Source: a virus. Taken from it: a stretch of 23,189 nt of DNA. Within the stretch, counting starts at the first letter, position 1; every line of letters begins with the position of its first letter. Positions 10,972 through 22,275 of the stretch are shown one piece after another. The position numbers were made by a program, and so were the translations under genes. The notes under the pieces are model-generated. The model was not told the DNA's origin, did no database searches, and saw only the letters and a program-made list of their open reading frames with translations. The stretch covers positions 1 to 23,189 of IMG/VR virus record IMGVR_UViG_3300032282_001367; one strand, written 5' to 3'.

Positions 10972-11346
10972 ATGGCAACAGAAAAACAATTCGCACAACA
11001 TCCAACACACACATCTTACTATGCAACTACTGATGGAGAAGTAATAAGTTTTAAAGGTAAGACACCAAAGTTTATTATTCAATGCAATCATGGTAGAGGA
11101 TATACACAATTTATGGTATCTGAAAATGGAACAACCAAATCATATCTTACGCATAGATTTTGCTATGAGGCGTTTTATGGTTTAATAGATGATGAAACAT
11201 TACAGGTACATCACATAGACCATGATAAAAAAAACAATGAATTATCTAATTTATCATTAGTCACAGACTGGGAAAATAAAATGCATGCAAAAGCAGCAGG
11301 TAGAAAAACAGGTGGTGCAATGCATAAAAAAAATAAAAAGAAATAA
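10972..11346 (+). CDS. Free-standing HNH endonuclease (124 aa)
   Basis: Residues 16-66 form the beta-rich N-terminal part seen in many phage HNH proteins (YYATTDGEVISFKGK, then THRFCYEAF). Residues 79-98 hold the nuclease core, VHHIDHDKKNNELSNLSLVT. His80/His81, Asp83, His84 and Asn93 are the expected metal-binding and catalytic positions, and EN at 101-102 and His105 complete the motif. The C-terminal end is strongly basic (KKNKKK). It likely nicks or cuts DNA as a homing-type enzyme, or supports packaging. It is not adjacent to the terminase, so homing is the simpler view. It has its own host-type promoter. Confidence 0.8.
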   Translation: MATEKQFAQHPTHTSYYATTDGEVISFKGKTPKFIIQCNHGRGYTQFMVSENGTTKSYLTHRFCYEAFYGLIDDETLQVHHIDHDKKNNELSNLSLVTDWENKMHAKAAGRKTGGAMHKKNKKK

Positions 11347-13236: not shown

Positions 13237-13827
13237 ATGATAGAAAAAGTAAAAATTACATCGGTTAAACCAAACAAAAATAACCCACGCACTATAAAAG
13301 ATGCAAAGTTTCGTAAATTGGTAGAGAGCATTAGAGAATTCCCAGAAATGTTAAAATTGAGACCTATTATTGTAAATAAAGAAGATGTAATATTGGGTGG
13401 TAATATGAGATATAAAGCATCGGTTGCAGCAGGTCTAAAAGAAGTATGGATATTAAAAACAGAAGAACTTACAAAAGAACAAGAAGATGAGTTTGTTATT
13501 AAAGACAACGCATCTTACGGAGATTGGGACTGGGACTCATTAGCAAATGTTTATACAATTGAAGATTTGGGTGAATGGGGTTTAGATGTGCCAAGTTATT
13601 TATTAGATGATGATGACAAAGAACCAACATATGATAAAGATAAAGTTGCAGAAAGATTGGGTGCATATATCAATAATAAAATAAAACAAATTACTTTATT
13701 GTTTCCAACAGAAGCATACGAAAAGATAATCATAAAGTTTCAAGATATTATGAAAGACCATGAATTGGAAAGTAATACAGATGTTATATTATTTTTATTA
13801 GACGAATACGACAACAAAAAGAAATAG
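13237..13827 (+). CDS. ParB/Srx-fold nuclease-like protein (196 aa)
   Basis: Residues 1-75 form a ParB N-terminal-like domain: NKNNPRTI (13-20), a helix (LVESIREFPEML), RPIIVNKEDVILGGNMRYKA (42-61) and an ASVAAGLKEVWI helix-strand. The NPR and GG-x-M-R-x-x-A motifs are the family signature. Residues 85-100 (EFVIKDNASYGDWDWD) are typical of phage members that sit upstream of terminases. The C-terminal part (QITLLFPTEAYEKIIIKF) may dimerise or bind partners. Phage members of this fold are found with terminase and base-modification genes; proposed roles include DNA recognition, nicking or base modification steps. It starts the operon that holds the glycosyltransferase and dioxygenase, one base before the next gene. 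Confidence 0.8.
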   Translation: MIEKVKITSVKPNKNNPRTIKDAKFRKLVESIREFPEMLKLRPIIVNKEDVILGGNMRYKASVAAGLKEVWILKTEELTKEQEDEFVIKDNASYGDWDWDSLANVYTIEDLGEWGLDVPSYLLDDDDKEPTYDKDKVAERLGAYINNKIKQITLLFPTEAYEKIIIKFQDIMKDHELESNTDVILFLLDEYDNKKK

Positions 13828-13828
13828 T

Positions 13829-14614
13829 ATGAAAACATTTGCTTTCTTTTACGACAGATACAATACAGCAACAACTTCCATAGAATTAGAAAAAAATGAT
13901 ATAGAGCATTATGTTATGATGCATAGTGAAGAAGCACATAATAAGTTTATAGAAGGAAATACTATAAAGGGAACACCAATAGTAACAAACAATCAAAAAG
14001 GCCTGGCATTTCAAAGGAATAGCGCAATAGAATATTTGATGGAAGATGGTGAGTGGGCAGTTTTTATGAGCGATGACTTCCATAAAATAAAAGCATTTAA
14101 CTTTGATAAATTAAAAATAGAAGATAAAGTTGATTTTGACATTAAAAATCAAGCAAACTTTAAGTATAAGGATAGACCAACTATGAAAGATTTATATTCT
14201 ATATTCCCATATTGTATTAAAACTGCAGAAAGACTTGGAATAAATCTAATTGGTTTTTCAGCAAATGATAATCCTAGAAATGTAAGTAGAAAGTTTGGAT
14301 TTAAAGGACTTGTTGATGGCAGATTATGTTTGGTTAGAAAAACACATTTAAGATTTGATACTAATGTCAATACAATAGATGATTATTATTTTACATTAGC
14401 CAACATAGAAGCGTTTGGTAATAATTTAGTATTGAATTGGATATGTCCAGATTTCCAAAGATATACGGAAGGTGGTGTAGGGTCAAAGGAAGAAAGAAAA
14501 GAACAACGCAAAGGTGATTGTCAATATTTAGTAAATAGATTTCCCAAATTAGTAAAGTTTGCAGACAAAGCAGGATATGATTATGGAGAACATATAAAGA
14601 TTATAGCACGATGA
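13829..14614 (+). CDS. TET/JBP-associated-type glycosyltransferase (GT-A-like, 261 aa)
   Basis: Predicted to add a sugar to a hydroxylated DNA base. Residues 57-66 (KGLAFQRNSA) and 76-83 (WAVFMSDD) form the G-L-x-x-Q-R-N...W-x-V-F-x-x-D-D pattern of the phage glycosyltransferases that accompany TET/JBP dioxygenases (TAGT/GREB1-type, described in comparative genomics by Iyer and colleagues). Asp82-Asp83 take the place of the DxD nucleotide-sugar/metal site. Residues 183-198 (IDDYYFTLANIEAFG) and the GGVG at 215-218 also fit, as does the C-terminal run NRFPKLVKFADKAGYDYGEH. Its stop overlaps the dioxygenase start (ATGA), so the two are co-translated. The acceptor base and sugar cannot be read from sequence. 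A glycosyltransferase for another target is the alternative. Confidence 0.75.
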   Translation: MKTFAFFYDRYNTATTSIELEKNDIEHYVMMHSEEAHNKFIEGNTIKGTPIVTNNQKGLAFQRNSAIEYLMEDGEWAVFMSDDFHKIKAFNFDKLKIEDKVDFDIKNQANFKYKDRPTMKDLYSIFPYCIKTAERLGINLIGFSANDNPRNVSRKFGFKGLVDGRLCLVRKTHLRFDTNVNTIDDYYFTLANIEAFGNNLVLNWICPDFQRYTEGGVGSKEERKEQRKGDCQYLVNRFPKLVKFADKAGYDYGEHIKIIAR

Positions 14615-15498
14615 GAGAATTACATTTAGAAAGAAGACCAATAGATTTAGAACAATTTAAAGCAAGAACTGCTTTATTGTCAGATGTTTCAAATGTTATA
14701 AAAGATGATGTGGTAATTTATAATAACGGAGTGCCTGTGATATTATATAAAAACTTGGATATAGATGTTAGTGGAGTTAGATGGGCAGTTAAAAATATTC
14801 CATATGATAATGGATATAGAACAAGAGGACTAATATCACAAAGCAAGATATTTGGATATTCACCAAGAATTGCTATTAGAAGGAATTGGTGTAGCACTAC
14901 TTCTCTTGCACAATCTCACCCAAAACAACATATGGTTATAGCAGATTTTGGAAAGGAACTAGTTAAATATTATGAAGAATACTTTCCAGATATATTTGAA
15001 ATGCATAAAAATAAAGTAAAAAATGAAGTAAAAGATGATTGGGTAATGGAAGGAACACCATTCACATCTGGTATTATAAACAAAAATAATCAATTAAAAT
15101 ATCATTTTGATTCAGGCAACTTCAAAGATGTCCTATCAAATATGATTGTGTTTAAGAAAGGAGTATCAGGTGGATATTTGATTATACCAGAGTTTGATAT
15201 TGCATTAGAAGTAAGTGATAAATCTTTAACAATATTCAACGGACAAGATATATTGCATGGTGTATCGGATATTGACTATGATATGACAAGTGGATACAGA
15301 TATTCAATAGTATATTATTCTTTGCAGCAGTTTTGGAAATGTGAAACTATAACAGATGAAATCATTGCAGCTCGTAAGATGAAAACAAAAAAAGAGATAT
15401 TGAGAACTGACCCTGAACATATAGCAACATTACAATCACACTACGATAAACTTATGCAAACAGAGCAAATTGTAGAGGATAAACGAAATAAAAAATAA
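14611..15498 (+). CDS. TET/JBP-type 2-oxoglutarate/Fe(II) DNA base dioxygenase (295 aa)
   Basis: Predicted to hydroxylate the methyl group of 5-methylcytosine or thymine in DNA using Fe(II), O2 and 2-oxoglutarate. The metal triad is visible: KYHFDSGNF (163-171) gives His165-x-Asp167, and ILHGV (214-218) gives His216. GYRYSIVYYS (228-237) supplies Arg230 for 2-oxoglutarate. The strand GGYLIIPEFDIALEV between them is the expected core of the double-stranded beta helix. Residues 66-105 (DNGYRTRGLISQSKIFGY, then RRNWCSTTSLA) resemble the conserved N-terminal part of phage members. It overlaps the glycosyltransferase by ATGA and precedes the terminase by 4 bases. No C5-methyltransferase is present in the window, so either it is elsewhere or thymine is the substrate. 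Confidence 0.8.
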   Translation: MRELHLERRPIDLEQFKARTALLSDVSNVIKDDVVIYNNGVPVILYKNLDIDVSGVRWAVKNIPYDNGYRTRGLISQSKIFGYSPRIAIRRNWCSTTSLAQSHPKQHMVIADFGKELVKYYEEYFPDIFEMHKNKVKNEVKDDWVMEGTPFTSGIINKNNQLKYHFDSGNFKDVLSNMIVFKKGVSGGYLIIPEFDIALEVSDKSLTIFNGQDILHGVSDIDYDMTSGYRYSIVYYSLQQFWKCETITDEIIAARKMKTKKEILRTDPEHIATLQSHYDKLMQTEQIVEDKRNKK

Positions 15499-15502
15499 AG
15501 AT

Positions 15503-15862
15503 ATGATAAACAAAAGTGGACACATAAAAAAGAAAGCAATTATAGCAGCATTAGAGCAAACATTAGGAGTTGTGACGACTGCATGCACAAAGGCAGACAT
15601 ACCCCGTTCTACATTTTATAAATGGTATAACGAAGATGCAGGCTTTAAGAAAGAGGTAGATGCTATCCAAGACATTACATTAGACTTTGCAGAGAGTCAA
15701 TTATTTAAGCAGATAAAAGACAACAACACAACTGCAACTATCTTTTTCCTAAAAACAAAAGGAAAGAATAGAGGATATGTTGAAAGACAAGAGATAGAAC
15801 ATAGTGGACAAATACAAAATGTAAATGTGACTATAAAGAAAAAAGATGACGAAACAGAGTAA
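15503..15862 (+). CDS. terS: Terminase small subunit (119 aa)
   Basis: A small DNA-binding protein directly before the large terminase, overlapping it by 17 bases. Residues 11-45 form a helix-turn-helix (KAIIAALEQTLGVVTTACTK, then ADIPRSTFYKWYNED), the usual DNA-recognition part of small terminase subunits. The second half is helical (LFKQIKDNNTTATIFFLKTK, then RGYVERQEIEHSG) and probably oligomerises. It recognises the packaging start on phage DNA. If the DNA is hypermodified, it must read modified DNA, which may explain why the modification genes sit just upstream. Confidence 0.75.
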   Translation: MINKSGHIKKKAIIAALEQTLGVVTTACTKADIPRSTFYKWYNEDAGFKKEVDAIQDITLDFAESQLFKQIKDNNTTATIFFLKTKGKNRGYVERQEIEHSGQIQNVNVTIKKKDDETE

Positions 15863-17048
15863 TCTAAATATAGAAACTACAATTACATTTCAGAACGCTT
15901 GGGATAATGAAAAGAAAATACAATTACATCAAGGGTCGGCTAGAAGTGGGAAGTCATTTGCATTACTACAATATCTAATAGTAAGAGCATTAAAAGCTAA
16001 CGAACTTATATCAGTAGTTAGAAAGACATTCCCAGCCCTTAGAACCTCTGCACTTAGAGACTTTAAGGATATAATGGGAGAGATGGGCATATGGGATGAA
16101 GAGAGATGGATGGCAACTGAGAAGATTTATACATTTGAGAACGGAAGCAAGATAGAGTTTTTCTCAACAGATAACCCTGAGAAACTAAAAGGATTACGCA
16201 GAAACATACTATGGATAGATGAAGCAAATGAGTTGTCATACGACCAATACTTACAGTTAGCAATTAGAACAACTGGTAATATCATACTATCATTCAATCC
16301 TTCCTTCTCACCGAAACATTGGATTATATCACAGGTTCAGGCCGGCGACGATTGTGCAACATTTATTACGACATATAAGGACAACCCATATTTACCAACG
16401 GAGCAAGTTAGATTTATTGAAAAGTATAGAGAAAACAACCCTAGATTTTGGATGACATATGGTTTGGGTATGTTTGCGGTGAATGAAAAACAAATATATG
16501 AGTTTGACATTGTTGACGAATACGATATGGATACAGCAGAGTTTGTTTGCTTTGGTTTAGATATTGGTTATGTGAGTGACCCAACTGCATTGGTAGGTAT
16601 TTGGAAAGCAGGTAATAATTTAATAGTAAACGAACACATATATCAAAAGGGATTGATTACTGCTGATATATTAGAAATGTTGAGAGGTAATGTAGATAGT
16701 AAGGATATAATAATAGTTGATAGTGCAGAACCAAGACTGATAGAGGAAATAAAGAGAGGTGGTTTTCCATTAGCCAAAGGTGTTAAAAAAGGAAAAGATA
16801 GTGTGCAATGGGGAATAGATTTAGTAAAGCAATTTAATTTGGTAATTCCAAAAAATAATACTAATTTGATTGAAGAATTATATTCGTATGAGTGGATAGA
16901 TGATGGTAATGGTGGTGTGACAAATATACCGGTAGATGCAAACAATCACTTATTAGATGCTTTAAGATATGGTGTAATGGAAAGACTAAATGCTAAAAAA
17001 ATAAACGCAGGACAATATGCAATCTCAATCGGAAAATATAAATATTAG
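15846..17048 (+). CDS. terL: Terminase large subunit (400 aa)
   Basis: The ATP-driven DNA packaging motor and headful/cos nuclease. The Walker A motif is GSARSGKS (30-37), and Walker B is ILWIDEANE (121-129) with Asp125-Glu126. IILSFNPS (146-153) is the coupling motif. The RNase H-like nuclease has Asp239 (FGLDIGYVSDP), Asp292 (VDSAEP) and Asp371 (HLLDALRYG). The length and motif order fit the PBSX/phage terminase large family. It overlaps the small subunit by 17 bases and the next coiled-coil gene by 32. All key residues are present, so it should be active. Confidence 0.95.
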   Translation: MTKQSNLNIETTITFQNAWDNEKKIQLHQGSARSGKSFALLQYLIVRALKANELISVVRKTFPALRTSALRDFKDIMGEMGIWDEERWMATEKIYTFENGSKIEFFSTDNPEKLKGLRRNILWIDEANELSYDQYLQLAIRTTGNIILSFNPSFSPKHWIISQVQAGDDCATFITTYKDNPYLPTEQVRFIEKYRENNPRFWMTYGLGMFAVNEKQIYEFDIVDEYDMDTAEFVCFGLDIGYVSDPTALVGIWKAGNNLIVNEHIYQKGLITADILEMLRGNVDSKDIIIVDSAEPRLIEEIKRGGFPLAKGVKKGKDSVQWGIDLVKQFNLVIPKNNTNLIEELYSYEWIDDGNGGVTNIPVDANNHLLDALRYGVMERLNAKKINAGQYAISIGKYKY

Positions 17049-17238
17049 AGAAAACCTATGGAACTCTAACGAAATTAAAGAGTTGATAGAGTATGCTAGA
17101 CATTTGCAAGCAGAAAATGAGGATTTACAAGCAAAAATGATAATGATGCAAGCAAAGTTAAACAACGAAGAAGCAAAGGTAAGACAAATGAATAACGCAA
17201 TAAAACAAATGATATATGGTCAAGGAGGTAACGCTTAG
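17017..17238 (+). CDS. Short coiled-coil protein (73 aa)
   Basis: Overlaps the end of the terminase gene by 32 bases and the start of the tail chaperone gene by 23, which argues for translational coupling. Residues 18-68 (NEIKELIEYARHLQAENEDL, then QAKMIMMQAKLNNEEAKVRQ) have regular hydrophobic spacing and predict a long helix or coiled coil. No family is recognised. It might be a head-tail or tail assembly accessory, judged by place only. Confidence 0.6.
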   Translation: MQSQSENINIRENLWNSNEIKELIEYARHLQAENEDLQAKMIMMQAKLNNEEAKVRQMNNAIKQMIYGQGGNA

Positions 17239-17878
17239 TATCCCACAAAGTTATGGTGATATAAGTTTAAAGAAATGGTTAGAGTTTCAACAAGAATTAA
17301 AAAACTATGAAGATGATGAAGATGCAATAACTGCATTGATGTTATCTTATCTATGTGGATTAGATAGTGAATACATATCACACATAGCAGTATCTGATTA
17401 TGCAATGATTAGAAATGAATTGGGTAAGTTTATAAACAATACTGATTTACCACTACAAAGATTTATTATGGTGAATGGTGTTGAGTATGGATTTGAACCT
17501 AACTTATCTAATATGACTTATGGTGCATTCGCAGACATAACAAAATATAATACAATAACAATAGATGACAATTGGGCAAACATAATGTCAATACTATACA
17601 GACCATTAGTAAAGAAAGTAGGCGAGACATATACTATTAAATCATACACAGGTGACATAGACCACAAACCATTTTTAGAACTAGGTATGGATATACACTT
17701 TGGTTGTTTGTTTTTTTTTGTAAATTTGTCAACGGACTTACTGAATTCTATCCTGAAATCTACGATGGAGATGGAGTTGCCTCTCAACACCAAGTTAACT
17801 TTAGCAAAAAGTGGGGAGCATATCAAGCAATTATTGAACTTGCAAACGGAGATATCCTCAAGATTAACCAAGTTGTAG
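17216..17878 (+). CDS. Tail assembly chaperone, unshifted product (G-like, 220 aa)
   Basis: Predicted to bind the tape measure protein and guide tail tube polymerisation, as lambda gpG does. The N-terminal part (LSIPQSYGDISLKKWLEFQQ) and the helical middle (IRNELGKFINNTD, then NLSNMTYGAFADI) resemble chaperones of Bacteroidota phages. At 17711-17719 a run of nine T encodes LFFF, and a second frame opens there. The unshifted frame goes on for 52 more residues (NLSTDLLNSILKSTMEMELP, ending in SSRLTKL), which look protein-like and not like junk. The overlap of the two frames is therefore dual-coding. The start is the ATG 23 bases before the end of the coiled-coil gene. Confidence 0.75.
   Translation: MVKEVTLSIPQSYGDISLKKWLEFQQELKNYEDDEDAITALMLSYLCGLDSEYISHIAVSDYAMIRNELGKFINNTDLPLQRFIMVNGVEYGFEPNLSNMTYGAFADITKYNTITIDDNWANIMSILYRPLVKKVGETYTIKSYTGDIDHKPFLELGMDIHFGCLFFFVNLSTDLLNSILKSTMEMELPLNTKLTLAKSGEHIKQLLNLQTEISSRLTKL
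17713..17719 (+). other. Slippery heptamer for -1 ribosomal frameshift (T TTT TTT)
   Basis: The zero-frame codons are TTT 17714-17716 and TTT 17717-17719, preceded by T. This is a perfect X-XXY-YYZ type site inside a run of nine T. A -1 slip re-reads 17719 and joins the frame ending at 17979. No strong downstream stem-loop was seen by eye. A homopolymer sequencing error is the other explanation. Confidence 0.7.
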
Positions 17879-17979
17879 AAGAACCATTAGAGAAATGTTT
17901 ATTATATCTTTCTTATAAGGCAGATAAAATACATGTAGATAATCTATTACATAACGAAGCAATGAAGAAAGTTAGATAA
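17719..17979 (+). CDS. Frameshift extension of the tail chaperone (T-like, 86 aa; joined product ~254 aa)
   Basis: Reached by a -1 shift at the T run: 168 residues of the chaperone, then 86 from this frame. This frame has no ATG nearby (it is open from 17656 without one; only a TTG at 17704), so independent initiation is unlikely. The residues are well formed (KKWGAYQAIIELANGDILKI, then PLEKCLLYLSYKAD), and match what I know of T-like extensions in tail chaperones, with the KWG-x-Y-x-x-I-x-x-LA-x-GDI pattern. The extension usually recruits the tail tube subunits. 160 bases (17719-17878) are coding in both frames. Confidence 0.75.
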   Translation, partial: CKFVNGLTEFYPEIYDGDGVASQHQVNFSKKWGAYQAIIELANGDILKINQVVEEPLEKCLLYLSYKADKIHVDNLLHNEAMKKVR

Positions 17980-21285: not shown

Positions 21286-22275
21286 ATGAAAAAATTTCAA
21301 AACTTTGCAAACCCAGTTGTAACTTCAACAAGTTATGCAGGTGAGGCAGCAGCAGGATATATCGCAGCAGCGTTATTGAGTGCAAACACATTGGACAAGA
21401 AGTTAGTAACTATCATGCCTAATGTTAAATACAAATCTGTTATCCAAAAGATTTCAGTAGCATCTTTAGTAAATGATGCATCTTGTGATTTTATCACAAA
21501 CACAGGTAGTGTAACTATCGCAGAACAAGTATTGACTCCAAAAGAATTACAAGTTAACTTACAATTATGTAAGCAAGAGTTTGTAGCATCTTGGGAAGCT
21601 TTACAATTAGGTTTTTCAGCTTTTGATGAAATCCCTAAGTCATTCAACGATTTCTTAGTATCTTATGTTGGTGGTAAAGTAGCAGAAGCAACTGAACAAA
21701 ACATTTGGCAAGGAACTTCAACTAATGGTTCTTTCGCAGGTTTCCAAACTATTTTATCTGCATCAGTAATAGCAGGTGGAGCAACAGCAGTATTACCAGC
21801 AAGAGTAACAGGTGGTTCATCTGCACTTATCTCTGGTAGTGTAACTTCAGCGAATGTAGTTTCTAAATTAGATTCTATCGTTCAAACAATCCCAGCAACT
21901 GTATATGGTAAGCAAGACTTATTATTATACATCCCTACTAACGTAGCTAAAGCATTCCAAACTGCAATGGCAGGAAATGGTGCTTCTGGTTTAGGTGCTA
22001 ATGGTTGGAACAATTCAATGAATATCGGTGAGAAGCCTTATAACTTCCAAGGTATTGAAATGGTATTATGTCCAGGTATGAGTGATTCTAACATCGTTGC
22101 AGCACAAAAGAGCAATTTATTCTTCGGGACAGGGCTTTTAAGTGATTATAACCAAGTAAAAGTAATTGACATGAGTGACATTGATGGTTCACAAAACTAT
22201 CGTATCATCATGAGATTTACATCTGGTGTACAATTCGGTGTTGGACAAGATATCGTATACTACGGAGCATACTAA
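21286..22275 (+). CDS. Major capsid protein (329 aa)
   Basis: The head shell protein. The N-terminal region is short and helical (AGEAAAGYIAAALLSANTLD), followed by KLVTIMPNVKYKSVIQKISV, CDFITNTGSVTIAEQVLTPK and ELQVNLQLCKQEFVASWEA. Next comes a long helix region (FNDFLVSYVGGKVAEATEQN), and a C-terminal part with LLYIPTNVAKAFQTAM and KSNLFFGTGLLSDYNQVKV. The order of N-arm, long spine-like helix, and C-terminal strand-rich domain fits HK97-fold capsid proteins of this size. The codon choice is less AT-biased than in neighbours (more AAC, ATC, TTC), as expected for a highly expressed gene. It directly follows the scaffold-like gene. Confidence 0.85.
   Translation: MKKFQNFANPVVTSTSYAGEAAAGYIAAALLSANTLDKKLVTIMPNVKYKSVIQKISVASLVNDASCDFITNTGSVTIAEQVLTPKELQVNLQLCKQEFVASWEALQLGFSAFDEIPKSFNDFLVSYVGGKVAEATEQNIWQGTSTNGSFAGFQTILSASVIAGGATAVLPARVTGGSSALISGSVTSANVVSKLDSIVQTIPATVYGKQDLLLYIPTNVAKAFQTAMAGNGASGLGANGWNNSMNIGEKPYNFQGIEMVLCPGMSDSNIVAAQKSNLFFGTGLLSDYNQVKVIDMSDIDGSQNYRIIMRFTSGVQFGVGQDIVYYGAY

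Follow-up and report, generated by a model that had tools for sequence, protein, structure and literature searches.

Gene order in the window

Why would a phage keep a ParB-like protein, a sugar transferase and a base-oxidizing enzyme directly in front of its terminase genes, and what would these proteins do to its DNA? The question is raised by a 23,189-base virus fragment with 31% G+C, the whole of which is called the window here. Five genes follow one another on its plus strand: a ParB-like protein of 196 aa (13237..13827), a predicted glycosyltransferase (13829..14614), a dioxygenase of the TET/JBP family (14611..15498), a terminase small subunit, TerS (15503..15862; PHROG terminase small subunit, 3.1e-11), and a terminase large subunit, TerL (15846..17048; Pfam Terminase_3, 1.7e-26, with TIGR01547 also above its cut-off). 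A single base separates the ParB-like gene from the glycosyltransferase gene, an ATGA overlap (14611-14614) couples the latter to the dioxygenase gene, and four bases lie between the dioxygenase gene and TerS. The preliminary description of this DNA had given the coordinates and junctions exactly, but its wording that the cassette is "fused" into the packaging operon goes too far: the genes are co-directional and ATGA-coupled, without any protein fusion.

The phage is of a Bacteroidota type, and, judging from its nearest cultured kin, which have genomes of 35-38 kb, about 60% of its genome is probably present. TerL is closest to those of Phocaeicola phages (mostly 35-38 kb, about 41% identity), and the protein encoded at 21286-22275 is closest to one from Nonlabens phage P12024L (28%; genome 35.7 kb).

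The three proteins upstream of the terminase

The dioxygenase matches Pfam Tet_JBP (PF12851) just above threshold (35.1 bits against a cut-off of 34.9, E = 1e-8, residues 97-237), and a relative, that of locus L015, scores 46.9 bits. His165, Asp167, His216 and Arg230, which the preliminary description had picked out at these positions, are invariant in an alignment of 17 phage homologues that includes actinophage proteins at 26-31% identity; the first three are the predicted iron ligands and the arginine the predicted 2-oxoglutarate ligand. Against structures, the profile gives weak matches to CMD1 and Naegleria Tet1 in the second half of the fold. The eighth residue after the 2-oxoglutarate arginine is His in Naegleria Tet1 and Leu in nearly all of the phage TETs considered here. 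It was tried as a guide to the substrate base and dropped, since Leu is also present in members adjoining a C5-methyltransferase. Homologues in mycobacteriophage cluster B (gp2, in RefSeq) and PHROG 6059 carry the label "queuine tRNA-ribosyltransferase", which conflicts with their Tet_JBP match and their catalytic iron-binding residues. A separate scan of IMG/VR with the TET of Rhodococcus phage Tonitrus as the query found nothing.

The glycosyltransferase is harder to place by sequence. It falls below the cut-off of the Pfam TAGT family, PF20691 (12.6 against 27.5 bits, E = 0.13), it has no sequence match in PHROGs or cultured phages, and its profile gives chance-level matches to PDB sequences, so that the evidence for its fold comes from a structural model. 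The AlphaFold model (pLDDT 84.6, pTM 0.86, from a 20-row alignment) matches the GT-A enzymes AvpGT, TarS, TarP and GalNAc-Ts in a Foldseek search of the PDB, and the best viral matches in BFVD include TAGTs, one of them a T-even-type beta-glucosyl-HMC-alpha-glucosyltransferase. An intermediate homologue (L010) passes the TAGT cut-off at 39.3 bits and is linked to the window protein by phmmer at 2e-26. The QRN (62-64) and SDD (81-83) motifs lie where the preliminary description had put them. All of the related TAGT types found at this gene position, Pfam-positive ones included, share R10, D82, G215 and G216 without exception, and D83 and D185 almost without exception. Judging from the model, this is a GT-A fold glycosyltransferase of the TAGT kind, with a predicted DNA-glycosylating activity. 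The dioxygenase thus falls within Tet_JBP and the transferase within the GT-A glycosyltransferases, the two placements on which the earlier reading of the locus had been staked.

The third protein matches Pfam ParB_N (5.9e-7, 29.9 bits against a cut-off of 26.3), which completes the trio of families proposed from the sequence at the outset. Its model (pLDDT 80.4) is closest in the PDB to the CTP-bound ParB structures 7bnr and 6sdk, and consists of a ParB/Srx nucleotide-binding domain, with an NPR box and a GGNMR box, followed by a helical C-terminal domain. N16, R18, G55, N56 and N91 are invariant, and the G, R and N of the nucleotide pocket are kept. In the hydrolysis box, which reads GGNMR as against GERR, Asn replaces the catalytic Glu, invariantly in the IMG/VR relatives, and the assignment therefore stops at a ParB-like domain, short of a CTPase. 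No parS-reading helix-turn-helix was found in its 196 aa by Pfam, and the best structural match extends over some 100 columns, those of the N-domain; nor do the regions near ParB share any parS-like palindrome. A ribbon-helix-helix C-terminus was considered and set aside, since its matches were sub-threshold. The protein probably tethers or loads the oxidase onto phage DNA, a role suggested by its constant linkage to the oxidase and its ParB-type nucleotide pocket, and by nothing further.

A conserved core with an exchangeable slot

How general is this arrangement? Among 80 IMG/VR loci related to the window TET, the order ParB-[slot]-TET-TerS-TerL is found in nearly every locus whose contig reaches far enough upstream; in three (L066, L067, L072) a C5-methyltransferase sits between TET and TerS, and in three others (L015-L017) the slot is longer. 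The same core is present in cultured phages, as ParB-TET-TerS-TerL in mycobacteriophage KayaCho, ParB-TET-(hypothetical gene)-terminase in Microbacterium phage Terij, ParB-TET-ADDT-kinase-hypothetical gene-terminase in Gordonia phage LittleMunchkin and ParB-TET-adenylate kinase-TerS-TerL in Arthrobacter phage Kharcho, and ParB, TET, ADDT, kinase and terminase also lie together in Tonitrus. Prochlorococcus phage P-HS2 (L109 3584-7371) has ParB-FkbM methyltransferase-TET-small gene-TerL, with the methyltransferase filling the slot, and the core is also found on an Ignavibacteria MAG contig (L104). It thus recurs in Bacteroidota-type phages, actinophages and cyanophages beside two terminase families: the window and L090 have the Terminase_3 type, and KayaCho, Terij, LittleMunchkin, L104 and P-HS2 the Terminase_6 type. 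There are exceptions: Nonlabens phage P12024L and Caulobacter phage Cr30 have TET and a TAGT without ParB or terminase alongside, and in Arthrobacter phage Altadena the ParB, TET, TAGT and PIG-L deacetylase genes are distant from the terminase.

The gene between ParB and TET, on the other hand, is an exchangeable tailoring slot that is swapped wholesale. It holds a TAGT of subfamily D in the window and, in other phages, TAGT-Y, TAGT-K, another presumed glycosyltransferase, or a set of ADDT, FAD oxidoreductase and kinase (L015-L017, L090). TAGT-Y is clearly related to TAGT-D in profile comparisons, and TAGT-K weakly so. The presumed non-TAGT glycosyltransferase (L040, L046, L099), labelled GT-B from a reading of its motifs by eye, has no Pfam or PDB sequence match. 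As in the window, the slot glycosyltransferase of relatives adjoins TET. More distant cassettes hold a thymidine-hypermodification kit of ADDT, P-loop kinase, FAD oxidoreductase, GATase and GNAT.

Among close phages that differ in the slot, the flanking proteins are nearly the same (TET 97-100%, ParB mostly 88-96%, TerS 95-100% and TerL 91-100% identical), and the slot proteins have no significant similarity. A TAGT-D phage (L028) and a TAGT-K phage (L030) are 96% identical in ParB, 99% in TET, 99% in TerS and 96% in TerL; a TAGT-K phage (L021) and one with the presumed GT-B enzyme (L027) are 100% identical in TET, TerS and TerL; and L063 (TAGT-Y) and L067 (TAGT-D plus a C5-methyltransferase) have TETs that are 98% identical, with no match between the slots in any of the three pairs. 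At the DNA level, homology stops at the end of ParB and restarts at the ATG of TET, leaving unmatched slots of 721 and 787 bp in L031 and L034, and of 788 and 764 bp in L063 and L067. The class of slot gene has changed at least 16 times on a tree of 47 TETs, a quick tree in which some branches are weak. The slot is a hotspot, but mosaic sites occur elsewhere too: in the 12 kb compared between L031 and L034 there are two further differing places.

Near-identical phages that differ in this way suggest that the chemical coat of the DNA is changed much as bacteria change their surface antigens. Such swapping plausibly gets a phage past defences tuned to a single decoration, for example the Brig1 glycosylase (PMC11078745; also discussed in PMC13216743). 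The exchangeable slot looks new, with component parts that were already known; no published description of it was found in the literature searched, which omits most subscription journals.

A proposed pathway

What, then, might the cassette do? We favour, as reasonably probable, a late, post-replicative hypermodification of bases in which a ParB/TET core beside the terminase works with a sugar-adding glycosyltransferase to give a protective product, and the slot is swapped by recombination. The ParB-like protein, with most of a CTP-type nucleotide pocket kept, would load or tether the oxidase on phage DNA. After replication, TET would hydroxylate a pyrimidine of polymer DNA at its 5-methyl group, most likely turning thymine into 5-hydroxymethyluracil (hmU) and less likely acting on 5-methylcytosine (5mC), and the GT-A/TAGT enzyme would attach a sugar at the hydroxymethyl group so formed. 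Packaging would come after decoration, and the decorated DNA would resist restriction and CRISPR nucleases, as is assumed from other phages. Relatives replace the slot glycosyltransferase by recombination and may thereby evade defences against one decoration. The preliminary description had already proposed that this phage oxidizes and decorates a base, and the genomic context lends strong support to that prediction, as the ParB-TET-terminase core recurs with TAGTs, a presumed glycosyltransferase, or a kit of ADDT and P-loop kinase. Its further suggestions, that the modification perhaps takes place as packaging begins and that the ParB-like protein may choose sites, are inferences that can point to a deeply conserved linkage to the terminase.

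A bolder version, offered tentatively, would make ParB-TET a conserved thymine-hydroxylating module of phages, a prokaryotic counterpart of kinetoplastid JBP delivered by a ParB clamp from the packaging operon, and the slot gene the switch for a chemical DNA "serotype" (one of several sugars or an amino acid), traded by homologous recombination in the flanking ParB and TET/terminase genes so as to evade Brig1-type defences.

If the favoured pathway is correct, many uncultivated phages, a large group, use TET to produce hydroxymethyluracil on the DNA itself, and the decoration gene is swapped like a surface antigen. One could then test which of the phage TETs hydroxylate thymine, for instance in the cultured phages Tonitrus, LittleMunchkin and KayaCho, and why ParB and terminase stay beside a base-oxidizing enzyme across host phyla. 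The cassettes would also offer a natural panel of diverse enzymes, predicted to glycosylate DNA, on a common core.

Which base is modified?

Thymine is the likelier substrate. Five complete cultured actinophage genomes with the core (Tonitrus, KayaCho, Terij, LittleMunchkin and Kharcho) carry no C5-methyltransferase of PF00145, and no homologue of thymidylate synthase, which could make hydroxymethyl-dUMP, was found in any of the 25 records tested, these five included; both absences argue for thymine, and the latter points to TET as the likely source of hmU. Most of the window's long relatives, which are fragments and therefore no proof, likewise lack PF00145, and a search of the whole 23 kb record, itself incomplete, was empty, in agreement with the lack of such a gene in the original account of this region. 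Thymine is also favoured by the occurrence of the ADDT and P-loop kinase families inside the cassettes of several TET lineages, since earlier work (Lee et al. 2018, 2022, as cited in PMC11955845) assigns ADDT and Ploopntkinase3 to thymidine hypermodification. The kinase and the amino-acid:DNA transferase are present in relatives' cassettes and absent from that of the window, which is therefore kin of the thymidine hypermodification pathway and stands outside it.

The alternative that survives best, though rather unlikely, is that the same cassette acts on 5mC supplied by the host, or by a methyltransferase that the phage encodes beyond the window, and produces glycosyl-5hmC. Experimentally tested phage TETs work together with C5-methyltransferases and glycosyltransferases on cytosine, according to the account of Burke et al. 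2021 in PMC12730594, and the substrate of the T-even TAGT is glucosyl-hmC, which derives from hydroxymethyl-dCTP and receives a second glucose (PMC13216743). A compact C5-methyltransferase directly follows TET in three TAGT cassettes (L066, L067, L072), a small divergent one lies elsewhere in the L004 record, and another lies elsewhere in that of G040, which bears ADDT; 5mC is thus a possible substrate in some lineages. The adjacent gene was rejected as proof of a 5mC substrate, however, since TETs that are 97-98% identical occur both with and without it, and 77 of the 79 nearest relatives of the compact enzyme have no TET in the flanks examined. It therefore looks like an independent, free-standing anti-restriction gene. 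The complete genomes without a C5-methyltransferase and the thymidine-pathway enzymes of related cassettes also speak against 5mC.

A genome-wide or a local mark?

Genome-wide decoration is not the only use to which ParB and TET could be put. They might instead mark a packaging or replication site such as pac, with the terminase reading the marked base or being protected by it. The linkage to TerS and TerL is kept across lineages with differing terminase families, a ParB-type protein adjoins TET in nearly all of the class, and in the mycobacterial and Microbacterium phages no glycosyltransferase interrupts the ParB-TET-terminase run, all of which would fit a local mark. Swappable bulky decorations and thymidine-hypermodification kits are better suited to genome-wide protection, however, there is no conserved palindrome near ParB, and the Altadena core lies away from the terminase, so that a local mark is improbable. 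Least probable is a glycosyltransferase outside the DNA pathway, acting for example on the capsid or host surface and merely an operon neighbour, as its low TAGT score and lack of PHROG or cultured-phage matches might allow, since the TET-coupled slot of its relatives holds only TAGTs, the presumed glycosyltransferase or thymidine-hypermodification enzymes, and its viral structural matches include a T-even-type DNA glucosyltransferase.

Comparison with known systems

Several known systems resemble the cassette in part. Iyer and colleagues are said to have predicted computationally, around 2009-2013, that phage TET/JBP enzymes act with glycosyltransferases or thymine pathways, and their papers may already mention the ParB and terminase neighbours. 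In kinetoplastids, JBP1 and JBP2 hydroxylate thymine in DNA, which is then glycosylated by the J glucosyltransferase to give base J. If thymine is the substrate here, the two systems would share hydroxylation by a TET/JBP enzyme followed by glycosylation; that of kinetoplastids is eukaryotic with unrelated accessory domains, whereas in the window the genes form one run with those for ParB and terminase, and the sugar enzyme is swappable. Phages M6 and ViI, studied by Lee et al. in 2018 and 2022, reportedly hypermodify thymidine starting from hmU that a thymidylate-synthase homologue makes at the nucleotide stage. Their ADDT, kinase and FAD-enzyme families are found in the equivalent cassettes of the window's relatives, but their source of hmU was not found in the 25 records tested.

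The closest published system is that of Tonitrus, a five-gene thymidine hypermodification system with ParB-TET (PMC11955845, 2025). ParB-like, TET/JBP and terminase genes lie in one left-end gene run, and the TET is about 35% identical to the window protein over three quarters of its length. Tonitrus differs in its tailoring genes, which come after TET and comprise ADDT (annotated aGPT-Pplase2), a kinase of the P-loop type and a gene of 293 aa, in a ParB-TET slot without a glycosyltransferase, and in its distant host phylum and terminase. In mycobacteriophage cluster B, where gp2 of Cooper is an example of a phage TET/JBP protein in PMC12730594, gp1-gp2 of KayaCho share the ParB-TET-TerS-TerL order and the catalytic residues with the window, but the stretch from ParB to terminase lacks a tailoring gene, and TerL is of the Terminase_6 type.

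The TAGTs of PF20691, which include the T2/T6 beta-glucosyl-HMC-alpha-glucosyltransferase, resemble the window enzyme in their GT-A fold, Asp pair and overall structure; the window sequence, however, is under the Pfam cut-off, and its hydroxyl substrate is predicted to come from TET acting on polymer DNA. Slot exchange also has a parallel, since beta-GT and TAGT replace one another at a syntenic position in T4 and T6 (PMC13390438). In both cases one DNA-decorating glycosyltransferase is replaced by an unrelated one at the same genomic position, but the T-even example is a single locus, whereas here three TAGT subfamilies and a presumed glycosyltransferase alternate among near-identical phages, with non-sugar kits in more distant ones.

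Other genes in and around the cassettes

Several cassettes carry further genes. In Altadena (L112 3746-6035), TET-TAGT is followed by a gene for a PIG-L GlcNAc deacetylase, which suggests that the sugar put on the DNA is GlcNAc and that it is then deacetylated to glucosamine. A second TET lineage (L196 5120-7470, and L197-L204) has ParB-TET, a class II glutamine amidotransferase, ADDT and a P-loop kinase, and then terminase; several members insert a GNAT acetyltransferase between the amidotransferase and ADDT, and the product is possibly an amidated or acetylated base. The TET cassette of L095 (2505-5205) contains two ADDT-like genes with unmatched proteins of 319 aa and 252 aa between them, the former PLP-enzyme-like by eye. 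Directly 5' of ParB in L072 (6245-6946) is a second sugar-transferase-like gene, with a DXD motif and OCH1-like by eye.

In the window itself, an HNH_3 endonuclease gene (10972-11346; Pfam 9.3e-13), of homing type by eye, lies upstream of the cassette. Two overlapping ORFs in different frames follow TerL at 17216-17979, with a matching layout in L017 (8989-9794), and may be a tail-assembly-chaperone frameshift pair.
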